This document shows positions 9,139-47,508 of a DNA stretch of 64,000 nt, in pieces (position 1 is the stretch's first letter; every line of letters begins with the position of its first letter). The notes beneath the pieces are model-generated. The model saw only the letters and a program-made list of their open reading frames with translations, was not told where the DNA came from and ran no database searches. The DNA is from Plantactinospora mayteni. GTDB taxonomy: Bacteria > Actinomycetota > Actinomycetes > Mycobacteriales > Micromonosporaceae. The translations under genes were made by a program, and so were the position numbers. The stretch spans positions 1 through 64,000 of the forward strand of contig NZ_BONX01000019.1 of the NCBI RefSeq assembly GCF_016862935.1, given 5' to 3'.

Positions 9139-10059
9139 TCACCTCGTCCTCGGATTGCGGGCGTCGTTGTACGCCACGGCGAGCAGGGTGGTCGCCACCA
9201 CCAGCAGCAGGATGGCCAGCGACGGGAAGAGCGTGGTCCACCAGGCGGTGGCGAGCGAGCCGGAGCGCTGCGCCTGGTGCAGGATCGTCCCCCAGGACCA
9301 ACTGTTCGGGTCGCCGAGCCCGAGGAACGACAGTCCCGCCTCGGAGAGCACCGCCCGGGAGGTGGTCAGTACCACCGAGACCGCGACGACCGGCGCGACG
9401 CCGGGCAGTACGTGTTTGCGGATGATCCACAGGTGCGAGCCGCCGATCACGTGCGCCGCCGAGACGTACGGCATCGGCACCACGGCCAGTCCCTGGGAGC
9501 GGACCACCCGGGCCACCTCGGGCCAACTGAAGACCGCGATCACCACCACCAGGGTCGGCACGCTCGGCCCGGCCAGTGCGGCGACCAGGATCATCAGCGG
9601 CAACACCGGCAGCGACAGCGAGACGTCGACGATCACCCCGAGTACGAGATCGGCCGGCCGGAAGTACGCCGCCGCGACCCCGACCAGTACGCCGATGACG
9701 ATCGCCAGCAGGCTGGCCGCCAGGCCGACCACGATGCTGACCCTGGTCCCCCAGATCACCTGGGCGAAGACGTCCCGCCCCAGGTCGTCGGTGCCGAACC
9801 AGTGCCCGGCACCGGGACCGGCGAGCACCTCCTCGCCGTACCCGCTCGGGTAGTCGGCGATCAGCGGCGCGGCCAGCGCGACCAGGCCGAGCAGGATCAG
9901 CACCCCGGCGCTGACCAGGCCGAGCGGGTTGCGTCGGAACGACTGCCAGGTCTGCCGGGCCACCGACTCGGACGGCGGCAGCCCACCGGCCGCCGGAGTC
10001 GCAGCGGCGGCCGGCGGCGGCGTGTCGCCCCCGGACGGCATCACCAGTTCCGTCGTCAT
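9139..10059 (-). CDS. oppC: Dipeptide/oligopeptide ABC transporter permease, OppC/DppC type
   Basis: A 306-residue inner-membrane permease with about six transmembrane helices. Features include an N-terminal OppC-like helix (NPLGLVSAGVLILLGLVALAAPLIADY), the conserved GTDDLGRDVFAQVIWGTRVS segment that follows it, and the coupling region RSQGLAVVPMPYVSAAHVIGGSHLWIIRKHVLP. It ends in a helix and a basic tail (YNDARNPRTR). The first 35 residues are Pro/Ala-rich and cytosolic. ATG 10059 overlaps the oppB stop as ATGA. It forms the membrane channel together with OppB. Confidence 0.92.
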   Translation of the reverse strand: MTTELVMPSGGDTPPPAAAATPAAGGLPPSESVARQTWQSFRRNPLGLVSAGVLILLGLVALAAPLIADYPSGYGEEVLAGPGAGHWFGTDDLGRDVFAQVIWGTRVSIVVGLAASLLAIVIGVLVGVAAAYFRPADLVLGVIVDVSLSLPVLPLMILVAALAGPSVPTLVVVIAVFSWPEVARVVRSQGLAVVPMPYVSAAHVIGGSHLWIIRKHVLPGVAPVVAVSVVLTTSRAVLSEAGLSFLGLGDPNSWSWGTILHQAQRSGSLATAWWTTLFPSLAILLLVVATTLLAVAYNDARNPRTR

Positions 10060-11021
10060 GAGGTCCTCACCCTCGGGTCGAGCAGTCCGTAGGCGAGGTC
10101 GGTGAGCAGGTTGGCGACGATCACCGCGAAGGCGAGCATCAGGAACGCGCCCTGCAACACCGGGAAGTCGAGCTGGCCGACGGCCTCGAAGATGGCCCGG
10201 CCGACCCCCGGGTACGCGTAGATCGACTCGGTCAGCACCGCCCCGCCGACCAGGAAGCCCAGTTGCAACCCGACCAGCGTGGTCGTCGGCAGCAGCGCGT
10301 TGCGCAGCGCGTGCCGCCAGACCACCTTCCGGTTCGGCAGCCCCTTGGCCCGGGCCAGCGTGCAGTAGTCCTCGCCGAGCGCGTCGATCAGGGTGCTGCG
10401 CAGGGTCAGCACGTACGAGCCGAGCTGCACCAGCACCAGGGAGAGGCAGGGCAGGATCAGGTGCAGCGCGATGCTGCCGTACGCGGCCAGCCCGTAGACG
10501 TCGTCGTCCATCGCGCCGCCGATCGGCAGGATGCCGAAGACCACCCCGAAGACGTAGAGCAGGAAGACTCCGATGCTCGGGATGAAGAGCGACTGGCCGG
10601 TGATGCCGCCGACCTGGATCAGCCGGTCCAGGGTGCCCTTGGCCCGGGTCGCCGCGACCACGCCGAGCGGGATGCCCAGCGCCACGGTCACCACCAGCGC
10701 GGAACCGGCCAGCAGCAGGGTCCAGGGCAGCCGCTCCAGCAGGATGTCCAGCACCGGCTGGTTCTGCCGGAACGACACCCCGAGGTTGCCGTGCAGGAGT
10801 TGGGTCAGGTACTCCCAGTACTGCACCGCCAGTGGCCGGTCCAGGCCGTAGTCGCGGAGCAGCTCGGCCCGCAGTTCGTCGGTCATCGTCGGATCCGCCA
10901 CCGCCAGGGCCGGGTCGCCGGGCAGCAGGCGCAGCAGGAAGAACGTTACGGTCACCGCGAACCACATGGTCAGTACGCCGCGCAGCAGGCGGCGGGTGAC
11001 GAACCGGGCGCCAGCGGGCAT
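10056..11021 (-). CDS. oppB: Dipeptide/oligopeptide ABC transporter permease, OppB/DppB type
   Basis: A 321-residue permease with the OppB signature start (RRLLRGVLTMWFAVTVTFFLLRLLPGDPA), an outer loop with YWEYLTQLLHGNLGVSF, and the EAA-type coupling loop DYCTLARAKGLPNRKVVWRHALRNALLP near residue 220. ATG 11021 follows a strong AAGGAAGGAGAGAG ribosome-binding site. A large hairpin separates it from oppA, so it is probably made in lower amounts than the binding protein. It pairs with OppC. Confidence 0.92.
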   Translation of the reverse strand: MPAGARFVTRRLLRGVLTMWFAVTVTFFLLRLLPGDPALAVADPTMTDELRAELLRDYGLDRPLAVQYWEYLTQLLHGNLGVSFRQNQPVLDILLERLPWTLLLAGSALVVTVALGIPLGVVAATRAKGTLDRLIQVGGITGQSLFIPSIGVFLLYVFGVVFGILPIGGAMDDDVYGLAAYGSIALHLILPCLSLVLVQLGSYVLTLRSTLIDALGEDYCTLARAKGLPNRKVVWRHALRNALLPTTTLVGLQLGFLVGGAVLTESIYAYPGVGRAIFEAVGQLDFPVLQGAFLMLAFAVIVANLLTDLAYGLLDPRVRTS

Positions 11022-11045
11022 GCTCTCTCTCCTTCCTTGGCTTGC

Positions 11046-11088
11046 CGGTCGAGGCGGGCCCTGTGGTGCGGCGGGCCCGCCCCGACCG
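11046..11088 (-). terminator. Hairpin between oppA and oppB
   Basis: CGGTCG-A-GGCGGGCCC (11046-11061) pairs with GGGCCCGCC-C-CGACCG (11073-11088), with one mismatch and an 11-nt loop. It has no U-run. Placed after a binding-protein gene and before its permeases, it probably stabilises the upstream message or partly stops transcription. Confidence 0.55.
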
Positions 11089-11105
11089 TCGTCGAACTGG
11101 TCGCG

Positions 11106-12716
11106 TCAGCCCTTGGTGGCCTGGGCCACCGAGACGGGGTTGACGATGGAGAGCAGCTCACTCGGCTGGACCAGGAAGTTGGACCACTCCGCCGAGTGCG
11201 CGATGGTGAACTCCTCGACGTAGAGCACGTTGTCGTACACCTTGTCGGTGATCATCCTCGCGGCCTGCTGGATCGGGCCCTTCTGACCGGCCTGGTCCAA
11301 CTGCCCCCGGGCCTGGTCGATCAGGGCGTCCAGCTCCGGGTCGCAGGCGTTGGCGTAGTTGATGAAGCCCTTGCACTTGAACGCGAGCGCCAGGTTGGCC
11401 GGCGGGTTCTCCATGATCGCCCACGAGCCGGCGTAGATGTCGTAGTCCCGCGCGGTGTACTTCTCCACGTAGGTGTTCCGCTCCAGACCCTCCAGCTTGA
11501 TCTCGATCCCGGCCGCCTTGCTGGAGTCCCGGACCAGCTGCGCCCACTTGGAGATGTTCGGGTCGGCCTGGTCGTAGATCATCCGCAGGCTGAGCCCGTC
11601 GAAGAGCCCGTCACCGTTGCCGTCCTTGAAGCCCGCCCCGGTGAGCAGCGACTTCGCCTTCGCCGGGTCGTGCGCGTACTCCTTGGCGGACGGGTCCTGC
11701 CACTGCTTCAGGGTCGGGGTCAGCACCGAGGAGTTCGACGAGACCGCCTTGCCCTGCAACGCCACCCGGCGGATCGCCTCGTAGTCGACCGCGGCGGCCA
11801 GCGCCTGGCGTACCTCCAGCTTGTCCAGCGGCTCGCGGGCGGTGTTGTACTGCATGTGCGCCCAGCCCAGCGACGGCACCTTGACCAGCTTGAGCTTGCT
11901 GTCGCCTTCGAGCGTCTTGGCCAGCGGCGGCGGCAGCGCGTTGGCGATCAGGTCGACGTCGCCGTTGCGCAGCGCCAGTGCCTCGGTGTTGACGTCCGGG
12001 AAGACCCGGAAGACCACCTCCTTGGTCTTCGGACCGCCCTCGATCAGCGGGAAGTTCTCCATCCGCTCCAGCACGTACCGCTGGCCCCGCTCCACCGTGG
12101 TCAGCTTGTACGGCCCGGCCGAGACCCAGTCCTTGTCGTTGGCGAACTTCTGCACGCTGCCGACCTTGCTGAACACGTGCTCCGGTACGACCGGCATCCA
12201 GAAGCCGACGTTCTCCAGGAACGTGCCGTCCGGCTGGGAGAGCTGGAACTCGATCTCCGTCGGGGAGATCACGGTGGACTTCTGGTACGACGAGATCAGC
12301 CCGGCGACGACGCCGATCTTCTCCTTGGCGACGGCGTCGATGGTGAACGCCACGTCGTCGGCGGTCACCTTCTCCCCGTCGCTCCAGGTGAAGTCGTCCC
12401 GGAGGGTGAACTTCGCCTTCCGCCCGCCGTCGGTGTACTCCCACTTGCTGGCCAGGTACGGCGACCGCACCCCGTCCATCCCCATGCTCATCATCCGGGG
12501 ATACATCAGGTTGGTCACCCAGGTGTCGGTACGGCTGTTGCCGACCAGCGGGTTGTAGTTGAGCACGTCGGCGGTGGTGCCGATCGTGATCCGGTCCGCC
12601 GAGCCGCTGCCGCCGCCCGCCTGGCTGTCCGGGTTACCGGGTGAGCAGGCGGTCGCCGCCAGCCCTATCGAGAGCGCGCCCGCCGCCACGGCGAGGGCGC
12701 GCCGGAATGTACGCAT
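11106..12716 (-). CDS. oppA: Peptide-binding lipoprotein, SBP family 5 (OppA/DppA-like)
   Basis: The 536-residue exported lipoprotein has a signal peptide with lipobox LAATAC (Cys near residue 24), a Gly/Ser linker and a solute-binding family 5 fold. Family features are the opening strand ITIGTTADVLNYNPLVGNS, WEYTDGGRKAKFTLRDDFTWSDGEKVTADDVAFTI near residue 90, and the late segment VRQALAAAVDYEAIRRVALQGKA. It captures a peptide-like ligand outside the cell and delivers it to OppBC. ATG 12716 overlaps the stop of the dipeptidase gene by one base (TGATG), so the two are coupled. Confidence 0.92.
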   Translation of the reverse strand: MRTFRRALAVAAGALSIGLAATACSPGNPDSQAGGGSGSADRITIGTTADVLNYNPLVGNSRTDTWVTNLMYPRMMSMGMDGVRSPYLASKWEYTDGGRKAKFTLRDDFTWSDGEKVTADDVAFTIDAVAKEKIGVVAGLISSYQKSTVISPTEIEFQLSQPDGTFLENVGFWMPVVPEHVFSKVGSVQKFANDKDWVSAGPYKLTTVERGQRYVLERMENFPLIEGGPKTKEVVFRVFPDVNTEALALRNGDVDLIANALPPPLAKTLEGDSKLKLVKVPSLGWAHMQYNTAREPLDKLEVRQALAAAVDYEAIRRVALQGKAVSSNSSVLTPTLKQWQDPSAKEYAHDPAKAKSLLTGAGFKDGNGDGLFDGLSLRMIYDQADPNISKWAQLVRDSSKAAGIEIKLEGLERNTYVEKYTARDYDIYAGSWAIMENPPANLALAFKCKGFINYANACDPELDALIDQARGQLDQAGQKGPIQQAARMITDKVYDNVLYVEEFTIAHSAEWSNFLVQPSELLSIVNPVSVAQATKG

Positions 12717-34584: not shown

Positions 34585-34944
34585 GCAGTCCGCAGCCCGG
34601 GGCCCTCCCCGACCCGGGAAGGCCCCCGGCACGGACGGCGACCGCTGCCCGTCGGGCGATGCCGCCGGCATCACCCGACATACCGGCGCAACCGTCCGGC
34701 CGGCGGCTTCATCGTGATCGACAAGGCCACCAACCGTACGGTCGGGGCCGGAATGATCGTCGAGGCCGGCTGACCGGTTGTAGCACGGGGCCGAGTCCCA
34801 AGGGCCGCCGGACGAGCCAGCTACCGAGCGCCACACGCCGGTGACCCGGGCGCGCGGATGGACACGCAGACTACGCTGGGATGCCTGCCGCTGCCCCGCC
34901 CGGGCCAGGAACAGCGGCATGGACCTGACAGGGGGCGTGCACCG
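34585..34944. other. 360-bp gap holding the cysN scar
   Basis: Apart from the cysN-like fragment at 34681-34773 there is no convincing gene. Plus-strand reading before the pglW-like start (from ATG 34858) is open, but its codons look non-coding. Confidence 0.5.
34681..34773 (+). pseudogene. Remnant of a cysN 3' end
   Basis: The reading YRRNRPAGGFIVIDKATNRT and onwards, ending EAG-stop, matches the last 31 codons of the intact cysN (32319-32411), with five residue differences. There is no start codon or ribosome-binding site. The vWA gene pair lies exactly between the two cysN ends. This is what an insertion, or a recombination with a diverged cysN allele, would leave behind. Confidence 0.8.
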
Positions 34945-37900
34945 ATGCAGGACGGCCGGTGGACGACGATAACGCCGTCGCAGTTCGACCACGAACGGGC
35001 GGCGTTGGAGTACATCCGCCGGCATCTGCCCGACGCCGAGCCATACCGGGCCTGGTCGAACTTCACCTTCACCGCCGATACCGGTCATGTCTACGAGATC
35101 GACCTGCTGGTGGCAGCCCGGAGCGGCCTCTACCTCATCGAGATCAAGAGCCTGCACGGCCGGCTGACCAACAGCGGTCCGAACTGGATAGCGGACAACC
35201 AGAAGTCCGTCCGGACCTTCGACAACCCGCTGCACCTGGCCGACCTCAAGGCCAAGCGGCTCCGCTCGCTGCTCGACCGGCAGGCCGCGAAGCAGAAGCT
35301 CAAGGTGAGGCTTCCGTTCATCCAGGGCGCGGTGTTCCTCTCCGCACCCGATCTCCAGGTCCAGCTCGACGAGCATCAGCTGCACTGGGTGTACGGCCCA
35401 GAGCCGAATCCAGGACAGCCGGCCGGGCCACTGCCGGGGATCTGGACCGGGCTGCTCGGCGCGTTACCCCGCGACGAGCGCCGCCAGGTGACGCCGGACC
35501 TGTCGAAGGCGCTGCCCAAGCTCCTCAAGGAGGTGGGCATCGCGCGAAGCCGCCGGTACGAGCAGGTCGGCTCGTGGCAGCTCGAGGCCAAGCCGTTCGA
35601 TGTCGGCCCGACCTGGCAGGATCATCTGGCGGAGCACGCCCAGTTCGCGCACGAGCACCGCCGGATCCGGATCTACCTGTTGGAACGCAACTCCGCCAAG
35701 GCGGAACGGGCCAGCATCGAGCGAGCCGCCCGGCGGGAGATGATCGCCCTGCACGGGATCAGCCATCCCGGCATCGTGCAGGTCGACACGATGGAGCCGC
35801 ACGAGGGCGGCCCGGCACTCATCTTTCGGCACGATCCCCGCGCGGTCCGGCTCGACCACTTCATGGTGCAGCACGGCGAGCGCCTCGACGTGGGTACCCG
35901 GATCGGGATGGTCCGGCAACTGGTGGAGGCCATCGGTTACGCCCACGGCCGGCGTCTCCACCACCGGAGCCTCTCCGCCCGCGGAGTGCTGGTCATGCCG
36001 GGCCAGCGGCAGCGAGGAGAGCCGGAAGAGGCTGCGTGGCTGCGCCCACACCTCCAGATCAGCGACTGGCAGGCGGCCACCCGTGGACCGGACTCGGTCG
36101 GCGGGAGCGCGGACGCGCTGCGCATCTCCCAGTCGTCGCGGCTCGGGCCGCACCTGGAACGTTCCGCAGAGGCGTACCTGGCGCCGGAGTTGAGCGCACC
36201 GTTGCCGGACCCGGTGGCGCTGGACGTCTTCGGTTTGGGCACCCTCGCCTATCTCCTGCTGTCTGGTCAGCCGCCGGCAGCCAGCCGGGCCGAACTGCTG
36301 GCCCGGCTGGCGAAGGAGGACGGTCTACGCCCGTCGTCGATGGTCGACTCGGTCTCGGAGTTCATGGACGAGCTGGTGCAGGCGGCCACCACTCCGATAC
36401 CGGCTCGCCGGCTCTCCTCGGTGGCCGAGCTGCTGGAGATGCTCCAACTGGTCGAGGAGGAGTTCACCGCACCTCCGTCCGTCGCCGAGGAAGAGATCGA
36501 CGTCCTCGAGGCGAAGATCGGAGACACGGTAGCCGACTGGCAGATCAAGAAAAAGCTCGGCACCGGTTCGACCTCCCGGGCCTTCCTGGCGCAGAACACC
36601 CGTACCGGCGCCCTGGAGGTGCTGAAGGTCGCGCTCTCCGACGAGAAAGCGAACCGGCTGGTGCACGAGGCCCGGGTGCTGCGAGGGCTGCACAAGGACT
36701 CCCGGGTGATCCGGCTGGCCCGGGAGGATCCGATCCCTGTGCCGCCACGCACGATGATCGTGCTGGAGCACGCTGGCGAGGTGACACTGGCTCGGAAGCT
36801 TCGTGAGGACGGCCGGCTCACCGTCGATGAGTTGGAGACGTACTCCGACTATCTGTTCGGGGCGGTCGACCACCTTCAGGGCGAGGGGATCTTCCACCGG
36901 GACATCAAACCGGACAACATCGCGATCAGGATCCGGCCGAACCGTACCCGGCAACTCGTCCTCTTCGACTTCTCGCTCGCCGCACTGCCGGTCGACGAGA
37001 TCGAGGCGGGCACGCCCCGGTATATCGACCCTTTCCTCGGCACCACCACGCGGCCGGTCTACGACGAGCAGGCCGAGCGGTACGCGGTCGCGGTCACCCT
37101 GCACGAGATGGCCTCTGGCGAGATTCCGGTCTGGGGCGACGACCACACCAACCCGCTACACACCGAGGGGCCGCCGGTACTCGCGGTCGAGGCGTTCGAC
37201 CCGGCGATCCGCAACGCACTGGTCGGCTTCTTCCACCGGGCACTGCATCGGGACGCCACGCGGCGGCACGCGTCGCTGAAGGAGATGCGGGACGCCTGGC
37301 AGCAGGCGTTCCGGCAGTCCGACCACACCGCCCCGGTCGGCTCGGACCACCCGGACGCCGAAGTCGAGACGACGGTCGCGGACCGCGACGAGGCGGCAGC
37401 CAAGGCTACCCGGGCAACCGTACTCGAAGCCTCCGGCCTCACCCCTCGGGCGGTGTCGGCGGCGCACCGGCTCGACGCGACCACCGTCGGCGACCTGCTC
37501 GGGCTGGGTTCGAAGCAGTTGTTCACCTTGCCGGGTCTCGGCGCCAAGACCCGGGGTGAGTTGCAGCAACGGCTGCGGGACTGGCGCGCCCGACTAGGCG
37601 AGCCGGATTCCACGGCGTTGCCGTCGCGGAACCGCACGGAGGCAAAGGCTGAGATCGCCGCCGAGACGATACGGGGGGAGGCAGAGCCGGGCCACGACGG
37701 CAGGTCGTCAGCGGACCTCGCCCGGGTCGGGCTCGACGCGGTCACTGCCTTCCTGGTACCGCAGCATCCGAACCAGAAGCAGGTAGAGGCGGTACGACTG
37801 CTGCTCGGCCTGCCCGACGAGTCGGGTCACCTGTCGGACCTGCCACCGTGGCCGTTGCAGGCCCAGGTGGCGAAGCGGATCGAGGTGACCGCGGGCCGGG

Positions 37901-39351
37901 TGGCGCAGTACCTGATGGCCGAGCGCAAGCGCTGGTACGCCGATCCGGTGCTGGCCAGCGTTCGCGCCGAGTTGATCACCCTGCTCGCCGAGAGCGGCCG
38001 GGTGATGAAGGCGACCGAGCTGGCCACCGCATTGTTGATGCGGCGAGGTTCGGCAGAACAGGCGGAGCCGGTACGCCGGGCGGTCGCGCTGGCGGTGGTC
38101 CGGGCGGCGGTCGAGATCGACCCGCTGTCGGCGGAGCCGAGGTTTGCCGCACGACGGCACGGCGATCCGGCGCCGGATAGTCGGAATCGGAACCGTCTCC
38201 TGATCGCCCTGGAGGTGGCGACCGACGAATCGCCGGACACGCCGTCCGCACCCGCCCTGCTCGACCTCGCCGACGCGCTCGGGAAGGCGGCGGACCGGCT
38301 CGCCGAGCTGGAAGTGTTGCCGAGCCCGGCGACGGTGCTGCGTGAGCTGGCCGCCGTCACCGGAAACGTCGGCGACGGCGGCTTCCGGCTCGACGACCGG
38401 CGGATGGTGCAGTTAGCTGCGGTGGCTTCGGCGCGGGCGGCGGCCTCACCCCGGCTGGAGATCTATCCCCGCGACCTCGACCCGGTACGGGCGCTGCGGC
38501 TGACCCAGGCCGGCCTGGTGCCGCCGTCGGTCGGTAACCGGCCCGCCGAGCTGCGCGAGAAGGACATCCAGGAGCGGGTCCGGGCACGGTTTCCCGAGAT
38601 GCCGTCGTTGCCGAGTCATCCCCGGTTGGATCATCTCCTTGCCGAGGCCGGGTTCCCGCTGATCTACCGGAACAGGGCCTATCACGCCCGACCGGGGACC
38701 GGCTCGTCGACCAGGATGTCGTCGCACCGACGGCGGTCGACCGACACCAGGATGACGGTATGGAACGCGGCCTCCCCGGAGCTGGCCGCCGCGCTTCGGG
38801 CCGAGCAGCAACTCGTCCGTACCGGCGAGGAGGGCGGGTTCAGGGCGTTGACGGTGCGCACCGACCGGTATCCGGACGCCCAGCAGGAACTGGTCAACCG
38901 GCTGAACGCCCGCGCGTGCAATGTGGCGGGCCGGTTCCTGGCGCAGTTGCGTACCCTGGTCGAGGCCCGACCGAAGCCGACCTGGGAGACGGTGCTCGCC
39001 GCCGACGCGGCCGACCCGAACTCCCGGGACGCGTTGAAGCTCGCCGAGTTCGCGGCCCGGACCTGGCAGCAGCTCCGGCCGGAACTGCTGGCCCTGCCGG
39101 ACCGCCGGCTGCCGCTGCTGCTCTTCGACGCCGCGCCGCTGGCCCGGTACGGCGCGATGGAGTTGCTGGAGGAGTTGGCGGACCTGGCCCGGGGCGGGGC
39201 GGGCGCGGTGTGGCTGCTCTGCCCGGTGGAGGATCCGGGCCAGCTTCCTCGGCTCGACGCTGCCGTGGTGCCGGTGGCCCAGGACGAGTGGGTCACGCTG
39301 CCGGACGCCTGGGTGGCGAACGAACACCGGAACGGCCGACCGCCCCGGTGA
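34945..39351 (+). CDS. pglW: PglW-like NERD/serine-threonine kinase protein (type 2 BREX)
   Basis: This 1468-residue protein has the layout of BREX PglW. It begins with a NERD nuclease-like domain (residues 10-140; D53 and the E66-I-K68 motif intact). A kinase-like domain follows (~205-500) in which the catalytic loop is HHRSLSARG and DFG is SDW, so it is a pseudokinase. The second kinase looks complete (~530-790: GTGSTSRAF, Lys in EVLKVAL, HRDIKPDN at 651, FDFS for DFG). Next comes a helix-hairpin-helix segment (~853, LPGLGAKTRGELQQRL) and a long C-terminal region. ATG 34945 has a GGGGGC site; ATG 34858 would add 29 poor-looking residues. Its usual partners pglX, pglY and pglZ are absent. 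Confidence 0.82.
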   Translation: MQDGRWTTITPSQFDHERAALEYIRRHLPDAEPYRAWSNFTFTADTGHVYEIDLLVAARSGLYLIEIKSLHGRLTNSGPNWIADNQKSVRTFDNPLHLADLKAKRLRSLLDRQAAKQKLKVRLPFIQGAVFLSAPDLQVQLDEHQLHWVYGPEPNPGQPAGPLPGIWTGLLGALPRDERRQVTPDLSKALPKLLKEVGIARSRRYEQVGSWQLEAKPFDVGPTWQDHLAEHAQFAHEHRRIRIYLLERNSAKAERASIERAARREMIALHGISHPGIVQVDTMEPHEGGPALIFRHDPRAVRLDHFMVQHGERLDVGTRIGMVRQLVEAIGYAHGRRLHHRSLSARGVLVMPGQRQRGEPEEAAWLRPHLQISDWQAATRGPDSVGGSADALRISQSSRLGPHLERSAEAYLAPELSAPLPDPVALDVFGLGTLAYLLLSGQPPAASRAELLARLAKEDGLRPSSMVDSVSEFMDELVQAATTPIPARRLSSVAELLEMLQLVEEEFTAPPSVAEEEIDVLEAKIGDTVADWQIKKKLGTGSTSRAFLAQNTRTGALEVLKVALSDEKANRLVHEARVLRGLHKDSRVIRLAREDPIPVPPRTMIVLEHAGEVTLARKLREDGRLTVDELETYSDYLFGAVDHLQGEGIFHRDIKPDNIAIRIRPNRTRQLVLFDFSLAALPVDEIEAGTPRYIDPFLGTTTRPVYDEQAERYAVAVTLHEMASGEIPVWGDDHTNPLHTEGPPVLAVEAFDPAIRNALVGFFHRALHRDATRRHASLKEMRDAWQQAFRQSDHTAPVGSDHPDAEVETTVADRDEAAAKATRATVLEASGLTPRAVSAAHRLDATTVGDLLGLGSKQLFTLPGLGAKTRGELQQRLRDWRARLGEPDSTALPSRNRTEAKAEIAAETIRGEAEPGHDGRSSADLARVGLDAVTAFLVPQHPNQKQVEAVRLLLGLPDESGHLSDLPPWPLQAQVAKRIEVTAGRVAQYLMAERKRWYADPVLASVRAELITLLAESGRVMKATELATALLMRRGSAEQAEPVRRAVALAVVRAAVEIDPLSAEPRFAARRHGDPAPDSRNRNRLLIALEVATDESPDTPSAPALLDLADALGKAADRLAELEVLPSPATVLRELAAVTGNVGDGGFRLDDRRMVQLAAVASARAAASPRLEIYPRDLDPVRALRLTQAGLVPPSVGNRPAELREKDIQERVRARFPEMPSLPSHPRLDHLLAEAGFPLIYRNRAYHARPGTGSSTRMSSHRRRSTDTRMTVWNAASPELAAALRAEQQLVRTGEEGGFRALTVRTDRYPDAQQELVNRLNARACNVAGRFLAQLRTLVEARPKPTWETVLAADAADPNSRDALKLAEFAARTWQQLRPELLALPDRRLPLLLFDAAPLARYGAMELLEELADLARGGAGAVWLLCPVEDPGQLPRLDAAVVPVAQDEWVTLPDAWVANEHRNGRPPR

Positions 39352-39371
39352 CCGAGCCGGCCCCTGACGAT

Positions 39372-39758
39372 TCAGTGGACGGCCAGGGCGTCTACTTGCA
39401 CTCGGAAACTGGGACCGACGAGCCCGGCGACGAACAGGATGCTCAGGGTCGGTTTGTGGCGGACGAGCCAGCGGGCGAGCTCTGCTCGCAGCCGATCCAT
39501 GTCGATGTCGCCGACAAGGTAGATGGTCAGCTTTACGACATCCTTGACCTGCAGGCCAGCGGCGAACAGGTTCCAACGGACGTTGTCGAGCGCGATCACC
39601 AGTTGTTCGATCGAGTCGTCCGGCACATGTCCGCCAGGTCGGATCCCGAGCTGGCCGGAGAGCACCAACCAGCGCGGTGAGCCAACCTCGGCCTGGTGGT
39701 GGAAACCGGCGATCGGCGGGTGCACCCGGTTGGGCGAGGGGTTGTAGAACCTTGTCAT
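39372..39758 (-). CDS. Rid-family (YjgF/YER057c/UK114) protein
   Basis: The 128-residue protein has the chorismate-mutase-like Rid fold: VLSGQLGIRPGG near residue 33, the helix IEQLVIALDNVRWNLFAAGLQVKDVVKLTIYLVGD, and the last strand FRVQVDALAVH. Rid proteins form trimers and deaminate reactive enamines or imines, but a subset are non-catalytic. Here the usual catalytic Arg region reads PTLSILFVAGLVGPSFRVQ, so the activity is uncertain. It is last in the minus-strand block inserted between pglW and brxD. GTG 39761 is an equal start option. Confidence 0.75.
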   Translation of the reverse strand: MTRFYNPSPNRVHPPIAGFHHQAEVGSPRWLVLSGQLGIRPGGHVPDDSIEQLVIALDNVRWNLFAAGLQVKDVVKLTIYLVGDIDMDRLRAELARWLVRHKPTLSILFVAGLVGPSFRVQVDALAVH

Positions 39759-39764
39759 CACGAA

Positions 39765-40499
39765 TCAGTTCGGTCCGGTCCGGGAGAGGTGGGACACCGC
39801 CTCCTTGGTGATGGCTTCCGCGAACTCACGAAGGAAGGCGAGAACCTGCTCGATCTGCGGGGTAGGTGCCCGAGCATGCAGATCCGTGTTGACGAGAAGG
39901 TTTCCATGCCGGAGTTCGTAGATCACCTCTACGGCAGCAGCGTCGAGGTTCTCAATGCTCGGGTACTCTTTCGGATCCATCGGGAGCATCAACTGGACGT
40001 AGACCCCTTCGTCCCACCAGCCACTGATCTGCTGGGATGACGCATTGAACTGGCCGGCTCGTTCGTGAGTCTTCAGCGAGAACACCTTCGACTCGTGGTC
40101 GCGTTCGGCATCCTCGTGAGTCGGGTGGGTCCGCAGACTGACGGTACCCCTCGGTTCAAACTTCCCGATCTCGGTGCGGAAGCGATCACTCTCGTCATAG
40201 GCACTGACGCCGCAGTTCAGGTAGACGTCGCTACCACGCGTGTCGAACGTTACTGTCGGATCGTCGGAGGATCTGAGTTTCAGGCCGGACTCCGCCGCGA
40301 CCTCTGCCATCTTCATGCCCTCGCACATGTCTGCGGCTGGCTGCCCATACGTTACGCGTGGCTCTTGGGTCTTGGTCGGCTCCGGGCCGGAATCGCATCC
40401 GCTCATCACGAGGGCGGCCACGGCGGCCAGTGCTGTCCAGCGTCGAGCGATGGGATAGCGGGTTCGACGGCGCACGTGCATGCCGACAACTCCGTTCAT
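39765..40499 (-). CDS. DUF3558-like lipoprotein
   Basis: The 244-residue exported lipoprotein has a basic N-terminus, a hydrophobic stretch and lipobox VMSGC (Cys near residue 35), then a Pro/Thr linker. The single globular domain contains ADMCEGMKMAEVAAESGL and NCGVSAYDESDRF, with two Cys that could pair. This pattern fits the actinobacterial DUF3558 lipoproteins common around ESX clusters. ATG 40499 overlaps the upstream ESX-like gene stop as ATGA; the alternative ATG 40481 would shorten the signal peptide. Confidence 0.7.
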   Translation of the reverse strand: MNGVVGMHVRRRTRYPIARRWTALAAVAALVMSGCDSGPEPTKTQEPRVTYGQPAADMCEGMKMAEVAAESGLKLRSSDDPTVTFDTRGSDVYLNCGVSAYDESDRFRTEIGKFEPRGTVSLRTHPTHEDAERDHESKVFSLKTHERAGQFNASSQQISGWWDEGVYVQLMLPMDPKEYPSIENLDAAAVEVIYELRHGNLLVNTDLHARAPTPQIEQVLAFLREFAEAITKEAVSHLSRTGPN

Positions 40500-41608
40500 T
40501 GGGCCTGCGGTAGATAGAAGTCACTGCTGTTGGTGCCGTCGAGCAGCCGGGGCTGTGGGGGCACCAGACGTCCGTCCTTGCCGTCCGGGACATCCCGGAT
40601 CACGTCCATCCGGAAGAGGACGGTCTGCACGTCGTCGTTGAGGGCGTAGTACTGCCTCTCCGAGTTCTCATCGATCAGCGTGATGGCATCGGTCAAGGCG
40701 TGGAGTAGTTCTTCGGCGGTGCCTCCGGTCAGGGCATGCTCATCCATGGGGTTTGGTGCTGCGGCGCTCGTCACTGCGGAGGCGCTGGCGCTGGCCATGT
40801 CGAGGCTGTTGGCCCAGAGATCCCGGCCTTTTGCCATGGGTACGAACGCGCTGACGATGATCATGACGTGCTTGGTGGACTGCTCCTGCTGCTGCGCTGC
40901 CGCCTGCTGGGGGCGTCGGTGCAACTGTTCCAGGAGCGCCTCGCGGGTGGCGTGCAGCACGTTCATCAGGCTCTGCTGGGTGAGGCCGACGGTGGTGTGC
41001 GCGGCCTCCAGGCCGGCGACGAGCGAGGCGAGCATCCGTTGATGGCTTGCCAGGGTGTGCTCGAACGGGTCGTAGAAGTTGCTGGCAAAATCTTCGGCCG
41101 CCTCACCGGACCAGTTGCCTAGGCTAAACCGCAGCTTGCCGAAATCGTGGGGCACGAAGTCCTCCAACCGTGCCAGTGCGTCCCGCACCGGTTGTATGAT
41201 CTCGTTGAGATAGACGGATCCGGTGGGATGAGCCAGGGGTTTGACCATCGTTCTGATCGAGTCCATGTTGTCCGAAGCCCATCCTGCGGCCTTCGTCTGG
41301 TACTCCTCGACCTGCTTCTGGATCTCCTCCTCTATCGAATCCTGCCAGATCAGGCGTGGCGGGAACGGCGGCGGCACGCGCCACATACGGCTGAAGGAGA
41401 CCGTCCCGGTGAACTCCACATTGATCCAGGAACCGGGCGCGCTCCCGAGAGCGGCTACCTCGGCGAAGATGTCGAACGAACTGGACTCGATCTCTTGCAT
41501 GTACGCGAACACCTGGTCGATGTAGTGCAACTCGGCCAGGTAGGTGCCGATCTCGTTCAGGTATTGGTGCATCTGGCGATAGTCGAAGGGGATCGAGTTG
41601 TCGACCAT
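40496..41608 (-). CDS. ESX/WXG100-related secreted-type protein, 370 aa
   Basis: The protein is mostly helical and lacks a signal peptide. A WxG-like hairpin is seen in KLRFSLGNWSGEAAEDFASNFYDPFEH near residue 175. The helical segments resemble long ESX substrates, and a hydrophilic C-terminal tail follows. A Gln-rich run (RRPQQAAAQQQEQSTK, near 245) precedes a hydrophobic-to-Ala/Ser stretch. It lies 21 bp after the 165-aa gene and is coupled to the lipoprotein by ATGA. It may be a type VII secretion substrate; no toxin domain is recognisable. Confidence 0.65.
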   Translation of the reverse strand: MVDNSIPFDYRQMHQYLNEIGTYLAELHYIDQVFAYMQEIESSSFDIFAEVAALGSAPGSWINVEFTGTVSFSRMWRVPPPFPPRLIWQDSIEEEIQKQVEEYQTKAAGWASDNMDSIRTMVKPLAHPTGSVYLNEIIQPVRDALARLEDFVPHDFGKLRFSLGNWSGEAAEDFASNFYDPFEHTLASHQRMLASLVAGLEAAHTTVGLTQQSLMNVLHATREALLEQLHRRPQQAAAQQQEQSTKHVMIIVSAFVPMAKGRDLWANSLDMASASASAVTSAAAPNPMDEHALTGGTAEELLHALTDAITLIDENSERQYYALNDDVQTVLFRMDVIRDVPDGKDGRLVPPQPRLLDGTNSSDFYLPQAQ

Positions 41609-41629
41609 GGCGTCTCCCGTCTGGCCAGG

Positions 41630-42127
41630 TCAGTCAACGACGTTGCGGGGAATGCGGGGATCTGCCAGGGGTGGATCCCCGGGGGCCGGGGGATCGGGCG
41701 GGGCGAGGGCGGGACGCTCGTAGTCCGACGCGTTGTTGCCCAGGAGCCGGCTGAACTCCTTGGCAGCCCCCTCGTCCGTGGCGGCGTACCGGTCGGCGAT
41801 CGTGACCAGCGCGGCGCCGACCTCCGACATCCGCAGCGAGGTCAGCCGCAGCACGTCCTGCACCTCGGCGCGCAACTCCAGCAGACGCTGCTGGGCCGGG
41901 CCGATGCCCCGCTCGGGCAGGTCGAACTGTCCTTCCATCGCCCCGGCCGTCCGATGCACCATCACGGCCACGTCGGCGTAGGTCTTGGCGATCTGGGGTA
42001 GCTCGTTGCGGCCGGACCGGTAGAGGTAGTAGAGGTGGGCGCCGAGTTCCCTACCCGAGCCGACATCGCCGACGCTGCCGTCCGCGCCGCGATACTCCGG
42101 CCGCCATCCCGGCTCGGTTGTCTCCAT
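41630..42127 (-). CDS. ESX-like helical partner protein, 165 aa
   Basis: A helical protein (LPQIAKTYADVAVMVHRTAGAM; QQRLLELRAEVQDVLRLTSLRMSEVGAALVTIADRYAATDEGAAKEF) with the spacing of ESX/WXG100 hairpins. It has a Pro-rich tail and no signal peptide. It probably pairs with the 370-aa protein downstream. It is first after a promoter-like site at 42168-42197. Function is inferred from shape and neighbours only. Confidence 0.6.
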   Translation of the reverse strand: METTEPGWRPEYRGADGSVGDVGSGRELGAHLYYLYRSGRNELPQIAKTYADVAVMVHRTAGAMEGQFDLPERGIGPAQQRLLELRAEVQDVLRLTSLRMSEVGAALVTIADRYAATDEGAAKEFSRLLGNNASDYERPALAPPDPPAPGDPPLADPRIPRNVVD

Positions 42128-42167
42128 GATCCCGTTACCCCCGATTACAGGTGAAATTGCCTCGGAG

Positions 42168-42197
42168 GTTATAGCACGATGCGCGACTGTCTCGTCA
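42168..42197 (-). promoter_or_regulatory. Promoter candidate for the left ESX operon
   Basis: On the minus strand, TGACGA (42197-42192) and TATAAC (42173-42168) are 18 bp apart, with the first ESX gene starting 41 bp downstream. The region is unusually AT-rich for this window. Confidence 0.45.
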
Positions 42198-42253
42198 CCC
42201 TACAGTCGGGAACCTGTGGATAACCTCGATGCTCGTACCACCCGGCCCTCCGA

Positions 42254-43861
42254 TCAGGATCCGTCTTCCGGGGTGGTGTCCCAGGTGAGATCCTCGCCGC
42301 CAATTTCTTGGATAAAGCCCTGCTCCAGGCCGACCAGGGCGGCGGTGCGCTCCCGGATGAAGCCGTCGCGGTGATCGGCGAGCAGTTGAGCCAACGCTGC
42401 CGGCGGGATGCCGTGGCTGACCGTCACCGGCCGCAGCAGTTTCAACGGAAGGTTGCGCAGGGCGTCGCGTACTGAGGCGCCGGGTGGGGTGGGCAGGACG
42501 ATTCGGTTGGCGATGTTGGCGGCGTCCCGTGTCCCGGTGACGATCCGGCGGTAGGCGGCGGGTCCGGAGCGGGCCAGCAGGTCGACCAGTTCGATCGGTT
42601 CACCGTCGAGCCCATAGCGCTGACCGAAGTGGTTCAGCTCCCAGAGCAGGAAGGCGCGTACCCGGCCGTCTTCGGTGTCGAACCGATCCGGCAGTGGCTG
42701 GGCGTACTGGCCCTGGAGGCTCAGCTCCGCCTTGCCGTTGGCGAAGGCCCGCATCTGGTGCAGGGCGCGGCGGAGCTGGAAGGCGTTGCCGCCGACGAAG
42801 ACCGTCGACCACGAGGTGCTCCAGAACCAGCGGACCAGGGCCCGGCCCTGCGCGCCGTCCGGGTCGGGCCGGTGGTGGAAGAAGAGCCCGAGCAGAACGA
42901 GCTGCTGCGGGTACGGCACCAGCCAGGCCACCGGCACCCCCGCCTCGTACCTGAGGAACCGTACCGCCCGGTGCAGGGCGACCTCTGCCTGCGCGACGAC
43001 ACCGTCGAGGGTCTTCCCGACCCGGTCGGCGAGGGCGGTCCAGCGGGCGCCCTGGACGTCGTCCTCGCCGGTGATCGCCACGATGGTCTGGAAGACCGGT
43101 TCCGCGGCGACGTCTCCGAATCCGCTGTCGGCGATGCTCTCCCGGATCGACGCGATGCGGTCGGTGAGAGTTTCGTCGTGCTCGGCCTGGTAGGTCAGCG
43201 CGGAGACCATCTGGTCCGGGCTGATCTGCCGGCCGCTGCTGTTGACCCGGGAGAACGCCTCGACCGCGTGTTCCAGGTCGCCGCCGAAGAGCCGGATCAC
43301 CGGAATCTTGTACGCCTTGATCCGCTGCGCGACCTGCTCGGCCTCGTCGACGAGGGCGTCGGAGTTGCCGGCAGTGGTCGGGTCGCGGGCGAGGCGGCGG
43401 GCGTGGGCCAGGAAGTCCACGGTGCGCAGTACCGCCTGCATGGGGAGCAGGTCGGCGGGCGGGGCGTGCTTGCCCCAGTGCTGGAACAGCAGGTCGCGCT
43501 GGTCCGGGGCGCCGAGGGTCCGATAGATCCACCATTGTCGGTCCCGGCCGGTGCCGGCCGGCTCGGGGCGGTGCACGAGGGTGCCGAAGAGGGTGGAGAG
43601 CCGCTGGTGCCCGTCGAGCAGGTACGCGACCGGACCGTCCGGGGCGGGCGGGACCTCGATGCCGGCGACCCGGTCGAGGGTGGGCAGTGACCGGCTGGTC
43701 TCCCAGACCAGGATGCTGCCGATCGGGTACCCGCGCTCGATGCTGTCGTAGAGGTCGAGCATCTGGTGGGGGTGCCACACGTAGGGGCGCTGGAAGCGGG
43801 GGACCCGGAGCCGGCCGGCGCGGACCTCGTCGAGGAGCTGTTCCAGCAGTAGCACCTCCAC
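42254..43861 (-). CDS. DUF262 (GmrSD/ParB-nuclease-like) protein
   Basis: The 535-residue protein has both DUF262 motifs: VPRFQRPYVW at residues 20-29 and DGHQRLSTL at 83-91. These form the nucleotide-binding ParB-like fold of GmrS-type restriction proteins. The C-terminal half (residues ~300-535) contains NIANRIVLP and VSHGIPP...FIRERTAAL, reminiscent of the DUF1524 partner domain but without a clear HNH set. DUF262 proteins act in type IV restriction, including BREX-associated BrxU. Start GTG 43861 lies six bases from the pglZ-like remnant on the other strand, so its promoter must be inside that remnant. Confidence 0.8.
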   Translation of the reverse strand: MEVLLLEQLLDEVRAGRLRVPRFQRPYVWHPHQMLDLYDSIERGYPIGSILVWETSRSLPTLDRVAGIEVPPAPDGPVAYLLDGHQRLSTLFGTLVHRPEPAGTGRDRQWWIYRTLGAPDQRDLLFQHWGKHAPPADLLPMQAVLRTVDFLAHARRLARDPTTAGNSDALVDEAEQVAQRIKAYKIPVIRLFGGDLEHAVEAFSRVNSSGRQISPDQMVSALTYQAEHDETLTDRIASIRESIADSGFGDVAAEPVFQTIVAITGEDDVQGARWTALADRVGKTLDGVVAQAEVALHRAVRFLRYEAGVPVAWLVPYPQQLVLLGLFFHHRPDPDGAQGRALVRWFWSTSWSTVFVGGNAFQLRRALHQMRAFANGKAELSLQGQYAQPLPDRFDTEDGRVRAFLLWELNHFGQRYGLDGEPIELVDLLARSGPAAYRRIVTGTRDAANIANRIVLPTPPGASVRDALRNLPLKLLRPVTVSHGIPPAALAQLLADHRDGFIRERTAALVGLEQGFIQEIGGEDLTWDTTPEDGS

Positions 43862-43866
43862 CCTGA

Positions 43867-43971
43867 TGTTTCCCTGTGCTGTCCCTGGTCGACGACGGAC
43901 GTACCGTCCGGCTCGACCTGGCGTTGTTGCGGGAGCAGTTCCAACTGCCGGGGCCGGGGAGGCGGTCATGA
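43867..43971 (+). pseudogene. Possible C-terminal remnant of pglZ
   Basis: Directly after a TGA, an in-frame segment of 34 codons reads FPVLSLVDDGRTVRLDLALL and onwards and ends with TGA overlapping the brxD ATG (ATGA). A coupled upstream neighbour is what brxD has in type 2 BREX loci, where pglZ precedes it. The composition looks like real protein (beta strand then amphipathic helix). Assignment to PglZ rests on gene order and needs a search. Confidence 0.5.
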
Positions 43972-45287
43972 GTACCCGGGTGAGCAGCGCACGGCGTCGC
44001 CAGGTGCTGGATGCGCTGCGGCGCGGTGCCGTACCCGAATCCGGCCTGGACCTGCTCGCGGTCGGCCTGGACCGGTTCTCCGCCGCGGTGGCCGAGGAGA
44101 TCGACACGGTCCGTACCGGTGGCGCGGTGTTCAAGGCCATCCGGGGCGAGTACGGCTCCGGCAAGACTTTCTTCGCCCGCTGGCTCGGCGAACAGGCCAA
44201 GCGGGCCAACCTCGCCACCGCCGAGGTGCAGATCTCGGAGAACGAGACTCCGTTGCACCGGTTGGAGACGGTTTACCGCCGTCTCACCGAGCGGCTGACC
44301 ACCGCGACGTTCCCGCCCAGCGCGCTGCGGGCCGTCGTCGACGCCTGGTTCTACGCGCTGGAGGACGACATCCTCGGCGGCGGGACGGTTGACCCGGGTG
44401 ACCAGGCGGCGGTCGACTGGGCCGTCGAGGAACTGCTCGGTCAGCGGCTCGGTGTCGTGGGTCGGACCGCGCCGACGTTCGCCAACGCGCTCCGTGGATA
44501 CCGGGCCGCCGTCGCCGCCGGTGACGCGGCCGGTGCGGACGCCGTGCTTGCCTGGCTGGGCGGGCAGCCGCACGTCTCGGCGGCGGCCCGTCGACACGCC
44601 GGGATCCGTGGCGATCTCGACCATTTCGGCGCGTTGGGCTTCCTGCAAGGGCTGCTCGTGGTGCTCCGCGACTGCGGATATCCGGGCCTGCTGCTGGTCC
44701 TGGACGAGGTGGAAACCCTGCAACGGGTCCGTTCGGACGCTCGGGACAAGGCGCTGAACGCGCTCCGGCAACTCGTGGACGAGGTGCACTCCGGCCGCTT
44801 CCCCGGCCTGTATCTCGTGATCACCGGTACCCCGGCCTTCTACGACGGGCCGCAGGGAGTGGCCCGGCTGGCGCCGCTCGCCGGTCGGCTGGCCACCGAC
44901 TTTCCCGCCGACCCCCGCTTCGACAACCCCCGAGCCGTGCAGTTGCGCCTGCCCGGGTTCACCGTTGACGCGCTCGTCGAACTCGGCGCTCGGGTGCGCG
45001 ACCTCTTCGCCGACGGCAGTTCGGCCCGGGACCGGTTGGTCCGGCTCGCCGACGACGCCTACCTGGCCGACCTCGCCACCGCGCTGGCCGGTCGGCTCGG
45101 CGGCAAGGTCGGGATCGCTCCCCGGCTGTTCCTGAAGAAGCTCGTGGCCGGGGTACTGGATCCGATCGAGTTGCACCCGGACTTCGATCCGCGCCGGGAC
45201 TTCGCACTCACGGTGGCCGACGCGGAGCTGACCGAGGTGGAACGTAACGCTACCCGGGCCGACGAAATCGCCCTGGACCTGCCGTGA
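43968..45287 (+). CDS. brxD: BREX ATPase BrxD (DUF2791-type P-loop protein)
   Basis: The 439-residue cytosolic ATPase has the BrxD N-terminus (RRRQVLDALRRGAVPESGLDLLAVG), Walker A GEYGSGKT at residues 60-67 and Walker B LLLVLDEVETLQR near 245. VITGTPAFYDGPQGV lies near 285 and the winged C-terminal part includes PRLFLKKLVAGVLD. ATG 43968 has a GGGGAGG site. It overlaps brxHI by GTGA, so the two are made together. BrxD and BrxHI are the right-hand pair of type 2 BREX and occur only with it or with related defence systems. Confidence 0.88.
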   Translation: MSTRVSSARRRQVLDALRRGAVPESGLDLLAVGLDRFSAAVAEEIDTVRTGGAVFKAIRGEYGSGKTFFARWLGEQAKRANLATAEVQISENETPLHRLETVYRRLTERLTTATFPPSALRAVVDAWFYALEDDILGGGTVDPGDQAAVDWAVEELLGQRLGVVGRTAPTFANALRGYRAAVAAGDAAGADAVLAWLGGQPHVSAAARRHAGIRGDLDHFGALGFLQGLLVVLRDCGYPGLLLVLDEVETLQRVRSDARDKALNALRQLVDEVHSGRFPGLYLVITGTPAFYDGPQGVARLAPLAGRLATDFPADPRFDNPRAVQLRLPGFTVDALVELGARVRDLFADGSSARDRLVRLADDAYLADLATALAGRLGGKVGIAPRLFLKKLVAGVLDPIELHPDFDPRRDFALTVADAELTEVERNATRADEIALDLP

Positions 45288-47491
45288 CCGCGACTGCCGG
45301 CCATCCGGCGGACGACGGATCCGGCGAGGACGGTCCGGGCGAGGACGGCAGTCCGGCAGCCGAGCGTCTCCATCCGGTGCTGTTGCACCACATCGTCAAC
45401 ACGCTCGGCTGGCGGCAACTTCGCGAGTTGCAGGAGGCCGCGCTGGTTCCGCTGCTCGCTGGTGACGACGCGGTGCTGCTCGCCGCGACCGCCAGCGGCA
45501 AGACCGAAGCAGCCGTCTTCCCGATGCTGTCCAGGATGGCGGACGAGCAGTGGACCGGCCTCTCGGTGCTGTACGTCTGCCCGCTCAAGGCGCTGCTGAA
45601 CAACCTCGAACCGCGGTTGACCACCTACAGTTCGTGGCTCGGTCGCCGCGTCGCGGTGTGGCACGGTGACGTGGCGGCCTCGGCCCGTCAGGCCATCCTG
45701 CGCGACCGGCCGGATCTCCTGTTGACCACGCCGGAGTCGATCGAGGCGATGCTGGTGAGCGTCAACGTCGATCACGCACGGCTCTTCGCGGACCTGCGGG
45801 CGGTCGTCGTCGACGAGGTCCATGCATTCGCCGGCGACGACCGGGGCTGGCATCTGCTCGCCGTACTCGAACGACTCAGTCACGCGATCGGCCGGCCGGT
45901 GCAGCGGATCGGGCTCTCCGCGACCGTCGGCAATCCACCGGAACTGCTCGGTTGGCTACAGGGCGCGGGGTCGGGGCGTAGACCGGGGCGGGTCGTGGCG
46001 CCCCACCTCGACTCGGCGTCCCCTCACTCAGCAGTGACGGCGTCCGCTAAACCTGTCGCCACAGTTCCCACTGGCCAGATCGAGCTGGACTACGTGGGGT
46101 CCCTCCAGAACGCCGCGACCGTGATCGCGGCCCTGCACCGCGGCGAGAAGCGGCTGGTCTTCTGCGAGTCCCGCCAGGAGGTGGAGCAACTCGGGCAGCT
46201 TCTCCGGATGAAGGGCGTCACCACGTTCCTCTCGCACGCTTCCCTCGCGCTGGACGAGCGGCGACGTTCGGAACAGGCATTCTCCGAGGCCCGGGACTGT
46301 GTCATCGTCTCCACCAGCACTCTGGAGCTTGGTGTCGATGTCGGTGACCTCGACCGCGTCATCCAGTTGGGCGCACCGCGATCCGTCGCATCGTTCCTGC
46401 AACGCCTCGGCCGTACCGGTCGGCGAGCTGGCACGACCCGCAACTGCCTCTTCCTGGCGCCCGACCGGCCAAGCCTGCTCCGAGCGGCCGGCCTGCTGCT
46501 GCTCTGGGGGCGGGGTTGGGTGGAGCCGGTCGTCGCGCCGCCCGAACCACGGCACATCGTCGCACAGCAGATCCTGGCGCTGTGTCTCCAGGAGCGCCAG
46601 GTCGGCGGACAGGTGTGGCACGACTGGTGGAACGGGCTCGAGCCCTTCACCAGGACCGCCGACGTGATCATGAGGTACCTCGTCGAACAGGGGTACCTGC
46701 AACGTGACGGAGACATGCTCTTCATCGGCCCTGAGGCCGAGCTGCGATTCGGACACCGTCACTTCATGGCCATGACCGCGGTCTTCACCGCACCACCCGA
46801 ATTCACGGTGCTCGCCGGACGTACCGAGCTTGGCTGGATCGACCCAAGCCTGCTGACCGAGCAGGTACATGGGCCACGTCGGCTTCTCCTCGCCGGCCGT
46901 AGCTGGCAGGTCACCTACATCGACTGGAAGCGCCGCCGGTGCTTCGTCGAGCCTGTCGACAGTGGCGGGAAGGCCCGATGGACCGGCTCGGGAGTGGCCG
47001 GGCTCTCGTTCGAGCTGGGCCGCGCGATGCGCGAGGTGGTGCTCGGTGCGGACCCACCCGTGGCGCTCACCCGACGAGCCACCGATCAGCTTGCGGAGCT
47101 TCGGGAGCTGCACCTGCCGGCCGTGCATCCGGGCGGTACGGTGATCACCCGTCTCGCCTCCGGTGACGTGCACTGGTGGACCTGGGCGGGCTTCCGCACC
47201 AACGCCACCCTGACCAGCACCCTGGCCGGTCTTACCGATCCGGTGCAGGAGCACAACGATCTCTACCTTCGGCTTCGCCGGGATCTCACCCCGGCGCAGT
47301 GGCGTGGTGGAGTCGTCGACGCTGTGGACCGGCTGTGCCTGCCGGAGGTCGATGAGAAGGCACTTACCGGGCTCAAGTTCAACACCGCCCTACCACAGCG
47401 GCTGGCGCTTGCCACCCTTGCCACCCGGCTGGCCGATCTGCCCGCCGCGCTCGACGTGCTGCGTGAGCCCAGCCGATTCGTGATCTCGTGA
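45284..47491 (+). CDS. brxHI: Lhr-like DEAD/DEAH helicase BrxHI
   Basis: The 735-residue superfamily 2 helicase has the Q-like region WRQLRELQEAAL, Walker A ATASGKTEAA near residue 68, motif Ia CPLKALLNN, TTPESIEAML, DEVH in VVVDEVHAFAGDDRG near 176 and SATVGNP near 212. The second RecA domain has LVFCESRQEVEQL, STSTLELGVDVGDLD and QRLGRTGRRAG. The C-terminal part is the Lhr-type extension without extra nuclease motifs. It is coupled to brxD through GTGA. In BREX this helicase is proposed to remodel DNA with BrxD. Confidence 0.88.
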   Translation: MTATAGHPADDGSGEDGPGEDGSPAAERLHPVLLHHIVNTLGWRQLRELQEAALVPLLAGDDAVLLAATASGKTEAAVFPMLSRMADEQWTGLSVLYVCPLKALLNNLEPRLTTYSSWLGRRVAVWHGDVAASARQAILRDRPDLLLTTPESIEAMLVSVNVDHARLFADLRAVVVDEVHAFAGDDRGWHLLAVLERLSHAIGRPVQRIGLSATVGNPPELLGWLQGAGSGRRPGRVVAPHLDSASPHSAVTASAKPVATVPTGQIELDYVGSLQNAATVIAALHRGEKRLVFCESRQEVEQLGQLLRMKGVTTFLSHASLALDERRRSEQAFSEARDCVIVSTSTLELGVDVGDLDRVIQLGAPRSVASFLQRLGRTGRRAGTTRNCLFLAPDRPSLLRAAGLLLLWGRGWVEPVVAPPEPRHIVAQQILALCLQERQVGGQVWHDWWNGLEPFTRTADVIMRYLVEQGYLQRDGDMLFIGPEAELRFGHRHFMAMTAVFTAPPEFTVLAGRTELGWIDPSLLTEQVHGPRRLLLAGRSWQVTYIDWKRRRCFVEPVDSGGKARWTGSGVAGLSFELGRAMREVVLGADPPVALTRRATDQLAELRELHLPAVHPGGTVITRLASGDVHWWTWAGFRTNATLTSTLAGLTDPVQEHNDLYLRLRRDLTPAQWRGGVVDAVDRLCLPEVDEKALTGLKFNTALPQRLALATLATRLADLPAALDVLREPSRFVIS

Positions 47492-47508
47492 CCTGAGCGG
47501 GCCTCAGG
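47492..47508. terminator. Short hairpin at brxHI end
   Basis: CCTGAG-CGGGC-CTCAGG begins one base after the brxHI stop. It lacks a U-run but sits between convergent genes, so it may be a weak terminator. Confidence 0.35.

Follow-up and report, generated by a model that had tools for sequence, protein, structure and literature searches.

Type 2 bacteriophage exclusion (BREX) systems, also named Pgl, are composed of six genes, i.e., pglW, pglX, pglY, pglZ, brxD and brxHI. In Streptomyces coelicolor, as described in PMC4365076, pglW, pglX, pglY and pglZ are all required for phage resistance, the methyltransferase motif of PglX, the kinase activity of PglW and the ATPase activity of PglY are each needed, and PglX is toxic without PglZ. 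A 2026 survey (PMC12839542) describes auxiliary effectors, including OLD-type ATPase modules, across BREX types, and the same source places BrxU/GmrSD type IV restriction enzymes, which are DUF262-type accessory genes, with type 1 BREX. A further system to be compared is PDC-M55, a PADLOC candidate module of three genes (A-B-C), in which A, an ATPase, matches NsnB, AriA- and GajA-type proteins (weakly for these two types) and Pfam AAA_15, B is a protein of unknown kind and C is a DUF262 protein. Here, we report on a locus of Plantactinospora mayteni (RefSeq assembly GCF_016862935.1, genome G000 in our set) lying in a stretch of 64,000 nucleotides (contig NZ_BONX01000019.1, positions 1 to 64,000, hereafter the window), in which genes for PglW on the left and BrxD-BrxHI on the right enclose a DUF262 gene. 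The original prediction, made from the sequence alone, considered this order either as a decayed locus or as a working defence system in which DUF262 replaces methylation-based discrimination. With a probability of about 93%, we consider it to be the wreck of an ordinary type 2 BREX island, in which a large deletion joined the DUF262 gene to the end of pglZ, and hence a broken locus rather than a new kind of defence. Three observations carry this reading: a sharp junction, the parent order conserved in two other genomes of the genus, and the lack of matches to the missing core elsewhere in G000.

Results

Compared with type 2 BREX, the window keeps PglW, BrxD and BrxHI at full length in the outer positions usual for them, and the pglZ tail still extends over the brxD start, whereas pglX, pglY and ~97% of pglZ are missing (Table 1). 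Profile searches of the three retained proteins all returned BREX families and bore out both the predicted plus-strand arrangement around DUF262 and the intactness of these proteins. Indeed, PglW matches NCBIfam NF033442 with 1625 bits over residues 33–1490 (cut-off 990), BrxD matches NF033438 with 636 bits (cut-off 350) and the best match of BrxHI is PADLOC BrxHI (1052 bits, residues 26–732); all three are matched over nearly their full length, and the curated NCBIfam cut-offs are passed by PglW and BrxD. The kinase motif HRDIKPDN of PglW is the same in two congeneric genomes (G003 and G005), and the core stretch of its NERD domain is near-identical to both. Note that the Walker A pattern used for BrxHI matched in none of the three compared species, and the pattern itself is at fault. 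BrxD and BrxHI also match SngB (120 bits) and SngC (380 bits) of another defence system, which we take to be Shango. As for the claim that nothing resembling PglX, PglY or PglZ lies between the two ends, it held for PglX and PglY and failed for PglZ, of which the last 33 codons and the stop are still present.

The junction was located by blastn, in which window positions 42054–43868 align to G003 offsets 9688–11500 with 90% identity and positions 43869–47492 to offsets 39809–43398 with 86% identity, leaving a missing stretch of 28,308 bases. Relative to G005, the missing stretch is ~23 kb and the alignment ends at 43859 and picks up at 43872, a break within ~10 bases of the G003 break. On the left, the break falls 26 bases into the DUF262 gene, inside codon 9, and the gene is not intact, as compared with G003 it has lost the start codon along with the rest of the first eight codons, the next in-frame start being GTG 43861. 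To the right, the sequence begins with the 34th-last codon of G003 PglZ and runs into brxD after the 33 kept codons. The two sides have no common sequence and one base (43869) remains unassigned, which fits end joining as a putative route of formation. The right flank is collinear with G003, and the deletion is therefore in place. A search with 2 kb around the junction found it spanned only in G000 among the seven genomes of the genus. Near this region, a ~176-base stretch (window 42054–42229) is single in the window and double in G003 (offsets 8476–8651 and 9688–9863), where its two copies enclose ~1 kb immediately downstream of the DUF262 gene.

The parent order was found in both congeneric genomes, each of which has the six type 2 genes together at a single locus, with genes assigned to PDC-M55 A, B and C, PglX, PglY and PglZ_2. 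The G003 order is pglW, the lipoprotein gene with the 370- and 165-aa genes, PDC-M55 C-B-A on the minus strand, pglX, pglY, pglZ, brxD and brxHI, and the G005 order is pglW, PDC-M55 C-B-A, pglX, pglY, pglZ, brxD and brxHI. Since this parent order aligns on both sides of the junction, the window locus descends from a complete type 2 locus, from which the DUF262 start, PDC-M55 A and B, and the pgl genes listed above as missing were lost. The PglX of G005 is 100% identical to the PglX on Micromonospora sp. HM5-17 NZ_RJWA01000003.1. In G003, pglX is interrupted by an IS66-family transposase gene (L097:325-5425), and a second BREX locus of the genus is in this way broken by another route. Note that G003 also holds a second set of pglW, PDC-M55C, pglX and pglZ (G003:C1:5498393-5529680, part in L011), and that the one brxD found by the BrxD search of this whole genome stands at the other locus.

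The assembly of G000 is a draft (9.84 Mb in 123 contigs, estimated to be 99.97% complete), and its contigs gave no match to NF033446 (PglZ type 2) or NF033451 (PglX type 2, E 1e-20). With NF047891 (PglY), run on G000 alone among the 28 genomes with BrxD described below, a single match of 23 bits over 32 residues was obtained and no PglY gene was found, the PglY scores being 1642 bits for G003 and 1636 bits for G005, both under the curated 1700. In these 28 genomes, NF033446 matched in 27 and NF033451 in 26. Of the tripartite core (PglX methyltransferase, PglY/BrxC ATPase and PglZ), G000 therefore retains only the 33-codon pglZ remnant; the proposed search for pglX-pglY-pglZ elsewhere in this genome yielded none, nor any complete BREX. 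PF08665 was tried as a test for PglZ and rejected as too weak for type 2, as it found nothing in 8 of the 28 genomes, in 7 of which (G000 being the eighth) NF033446 found PglZ, and some of its matches sit away from brxD (e.g., G060:C36 and G068:C1:387082); its zero in G000 is not relied on.

The distribution of the arrangement was assessed in a first set of 151 genomes, in which BrxD matched at E 1e-30 in 30 genomes and over the family cut-off in 28; G048, G062 and a second match in G056 fell below the cut-off and were left out of the counts. PglW was found in 27 of these 28 genomes (26 over its cut-off). In addition, BrxD was present in 50 of 397 genomes of the order, giving 70 genomes when pooled with the first set. 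A type-2 PglZ match occurs in 69 of the 70 (68 over cut-off), the sole genome without one being G000. At the level of single genes, 71 BrxD genes pass the cut-off and 67 of them are preceded by a same-strand pglZ at a distance below 500 bp (a contig-end piece in G040 included), and the four exceptions are G000, two genes with 1.4 and 3.2 kb between pglZ and brxD, and a second copy in G469. Within the genus, BrxD is found in four of the seven genomes (three besides G000) and the G000 order in none of the six others. The expectation that relatives would share the order was not borne out, and in this sample G000 alone has the arrangement. G040 was considered as a second case without core (no PglX match and 35 residues of PglZ) and rejected as a contig break, the PglZ match stopping 2 bases short of where contig C51 (15,614 bases) ends; pglX was not found in the 4 kb beyond pglW on its contig C65. 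The second BrxD of G469 (533 bits, on C162, L100/L101) was treated as another kind of locus: it is 35% identical to the BrxD of G005, adjoins a BrxHI-like helicase matched in two pieces, has no PglZ on its contig, and PglZ and PglW matches are absent from the 32 kb taken.

The DUF262 protein of the window is the C protein of PDC-M55 (712 bits) and is 90% identical to C of G003. Unlike a whole module, the window lacks A and B: neither has a match among the scanned neighbouring genes of the window, and B was not found in the G000 genome by a search in which no control matched, A not having been searched genome-wide. A resemblance to BrxU/GmrSD is limited to the presence of a DUF262-type accessory gene with BREX, whereas the window protein has no GmrSD C-terminal match and belongs to a three-gene module; where a DUF262 N-terminal with a DUF1524/HNH C-terminal part was looked for, only PF03235 was found at E 0.001. 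In G005, a TAG counted in the match of the DUF262 gene seems to stand at its very end, with a frame open over 538 aa.

Scanning the contig collection with six aligned proteins of this kind yielded 71 DUF262 loci, three of which (L094–L096) have no PDC-M55C match by tblastn at 1e-12. A and B are both present in all 34 loci that reach 40% identity and include 2.5 kb or more of upstream DNA, and when all 60 loci with at least 2.5 kb upstream are taken, four are without detectable A. At 10 of the 71 loci (L026, L027, L041, L044, L051, L052, L054, L055, L056 and L075), PDC-M55 is located within or next to type 2 BREX, six times between pglW and pglX in the same orientation, twice there on the opposite strand, and twice directly after brxHI, a pattern that looks like repeated recruitment of the module by type 2 BREX. 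G003 (L006 and L011) also shows PDC-M55 with type 2 BREX. DUF262 stands beside pglX in all eight loci where pglX is in view, and is therefore an added layer and no substitute for methylation. The idea that DUF262 replaces methylation-based discrimination is thus not supported, as this protein is gene C standing beside pglX in G003 and G005, and is here without A, B and its start. The DUF262 gene of the window is the truncated end gene of an accessory module and did not replace the methyltransferase. In the literature searched, which lacks most subscription journals, the term PDC-M55 occurs in no paper, none was found on its pairing with type 2 BREX or on BREX with pglW and DUF262, and broader searches gave nothing on this order.

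As regards the neighbouring genes, the minus-strand Rid gene was correctly predicted, and its counterpart in the G003 stretch is only a matching piece of 134 bases on the opposite strand. The lipoprotein gene has a counterpart in G003 and no match in the G005 stretch. The 370- and 165-aa proteins, which had been labelled 'ESX-like', have no Pfam match up to E 0.1, a result that neither confirms nor dismisses the label. In the part of the G003 island that is absent from the window, a gene (L006:13923-16106) has WXG100-like, RTX-repeat and Peptidase_M91 'effector' matches.

Table 1. Genes and other features of the type 2 BREX remnant in the P. mayteni window
Feature	Position	Strand	Description
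pglW	34858–39351	+	NERD nuclease domain, pseudokinase and kinase; 1497 aa; full length, 0 internal stops
Rid family protein, accessory cargo	39372–39761	-	PF01042, 52 bits
Predicted lipoprotein, accessory cargo	39765–40499	-	Label from sequence reading alone
370-aa protein	40496–41608	-	No family match; counterpart in G003
165-aa protein	41630–42127	-	No family match; counterpart in G003
PDC-M55C (DUF262/GmrSD_N) gene, 5' truncated	42254–43861	-	PF03235, 79 bits; PADLOC PDC-M55C (PDLC04709), 712 bits
Deletion junction	43868–43869		Base 43869 belongs to neither side
pglZ remnant	43870–43971	+	Last 33 codons and stop; TGA overlaps the brxD ATG
brxD, ATPase	43968–45287	+	Full length; Walker A/B found; open reading frame 43866–45287, likely start ATG 43968
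brxHI, DEAD/DEAH-type helicase	45284–47491	+	Full length; DEVH, SAT and motif VI found

Discussion

Our results argue for the decayed-locus half of the original prediction, and the events can be proposed as follows. The ancestor would have carried pglW, a cargo block, an inverted PDC-M55 C-B-A, pglX, more cargo and pglY-pglZ-brxD-brxHI. One deletion, probably a single event, would then have joined codon 9 of DUF262 to the 34th-last codon of pglZ, taking PDC-M55 A and B, pglX, pglY and ~97% of pglZ, and leaving the PglW kinase/nuclease, BrxD-BrxHI and a truncated, orphan DUF262. By analogy with the published Pgl genetics of S. coelicolor, BREX protection is no longer expected of the remaining genes, since they lack the methyltransferase, the PglY ATPase and PglZ. 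The joint loss of PglX and PglZ may also avoid the toxicity of PglX, which may be why the deletion was tolerated.

The age of the deletion can be approached through the pglZ remnant, in which 28 of the 33 codons were aligned (the variable tail being left out) and show 10 differences with G003, all silent. Four of the silent changes fall on the G000 branch, with a neutral chance of 0.01, a weak sign of a deletion that is young relative to the divergence from G003. Note that the probability calculated for the 10 differences (1.1e-5) was set aside for dating, since pglZ is still a gene in G003. As a separate observation, silent changes from G/C to A/T versus the reverse number 70:10 in pglW, 33:1 in brxD and 49:6 in brxHI on the G000 branch, and 33:13, 13:6 and 23:5, respectively, on the G003 branch, and this strong lean towards A/T relative to the G003 branch is not seen in DUF262 (11:0 for G000 versus 11:1 for G003).

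Some points speak against a broken locus. On the G000 branch, the ratio of non-synonymous to synonymous changes (pN/pS) is 0.106 for PglW, 0.085 for DUF262, 0.055 for BrxD and 0.084 for BrxHI, and the values on the G003 branch (0.140, 0.158, 0.067 and 0.157, respectively) are all above those of G000. Relaxed selection on the G000 branch was tested in these four surviving genes and none was seen, their frames being open; such low ratios are expected from a recent deletion and equally from a retained role, and neither prove nor exclude a present function. In addition, a misassembly retains a small probability, with junction sides that share no sequence to provoke one.

The first rival explanation, which we regard as improbable, is a working minimal defence independent of methylation, with PglW as the sensor of infection and with its NERD nuclease and kinase, BrxD-BrxHI and DUF262 as the acting parts. 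Such a defence would be consistent with three full-length BREX proteins under purifying selection over the entire branch, and with the SngB and SngC matches of BrxD and BrxHI. It is opposed by a DUF262 gene deprived of its start and of the partners A and B, which accompany C in every close relative with enough DNA, by a junction present in one of the seven genus genomes while all the other 69 BrxD genomes have a PglZ match, by a brxD deprived of the preceding pglY-pglZ, whose last stop overlaps it, and by the S. coelicolor requirements for the PglX motif, the PglW kinase and the PglY ATPase (PMC4365076). There is equally little to favour the proposal that the leftover PglW and BrxD-BrxHI, perhaps with the shortened DUF262, still form a methylation-independent, possibly abortive, defence module; if true, this residual module would explain the four frames still open and conserved. 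The least probable reading is that the contig falsely joins two distant places while the true strain has the whole locus, for which the draft state of the genome and its uninspected reads leave some room, and which is opposed by the lack of common sequence at the junction, by its location inside a contig with a right flank collinear with G003, and by a nearly complete genome in which the PglX, PglY and type-2 PglZ genes were not found on any contig.

Altogether, the reading of this locus as a type 2 BREX island that broke, probably recently, removes a false lead, as the apparently new BREX gene order is the deletion of one strain. It also provides information about the ways in which such loci break in the genus, i.e., a 28 kb deletion in G000 and an IS66 transposase gene inside pglX in G003. 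Finally, PDC-M55 accompanies type 2 BREX, inside it or next to it, in three arrangements, which makes it a testable example of one defence carrying another within it.

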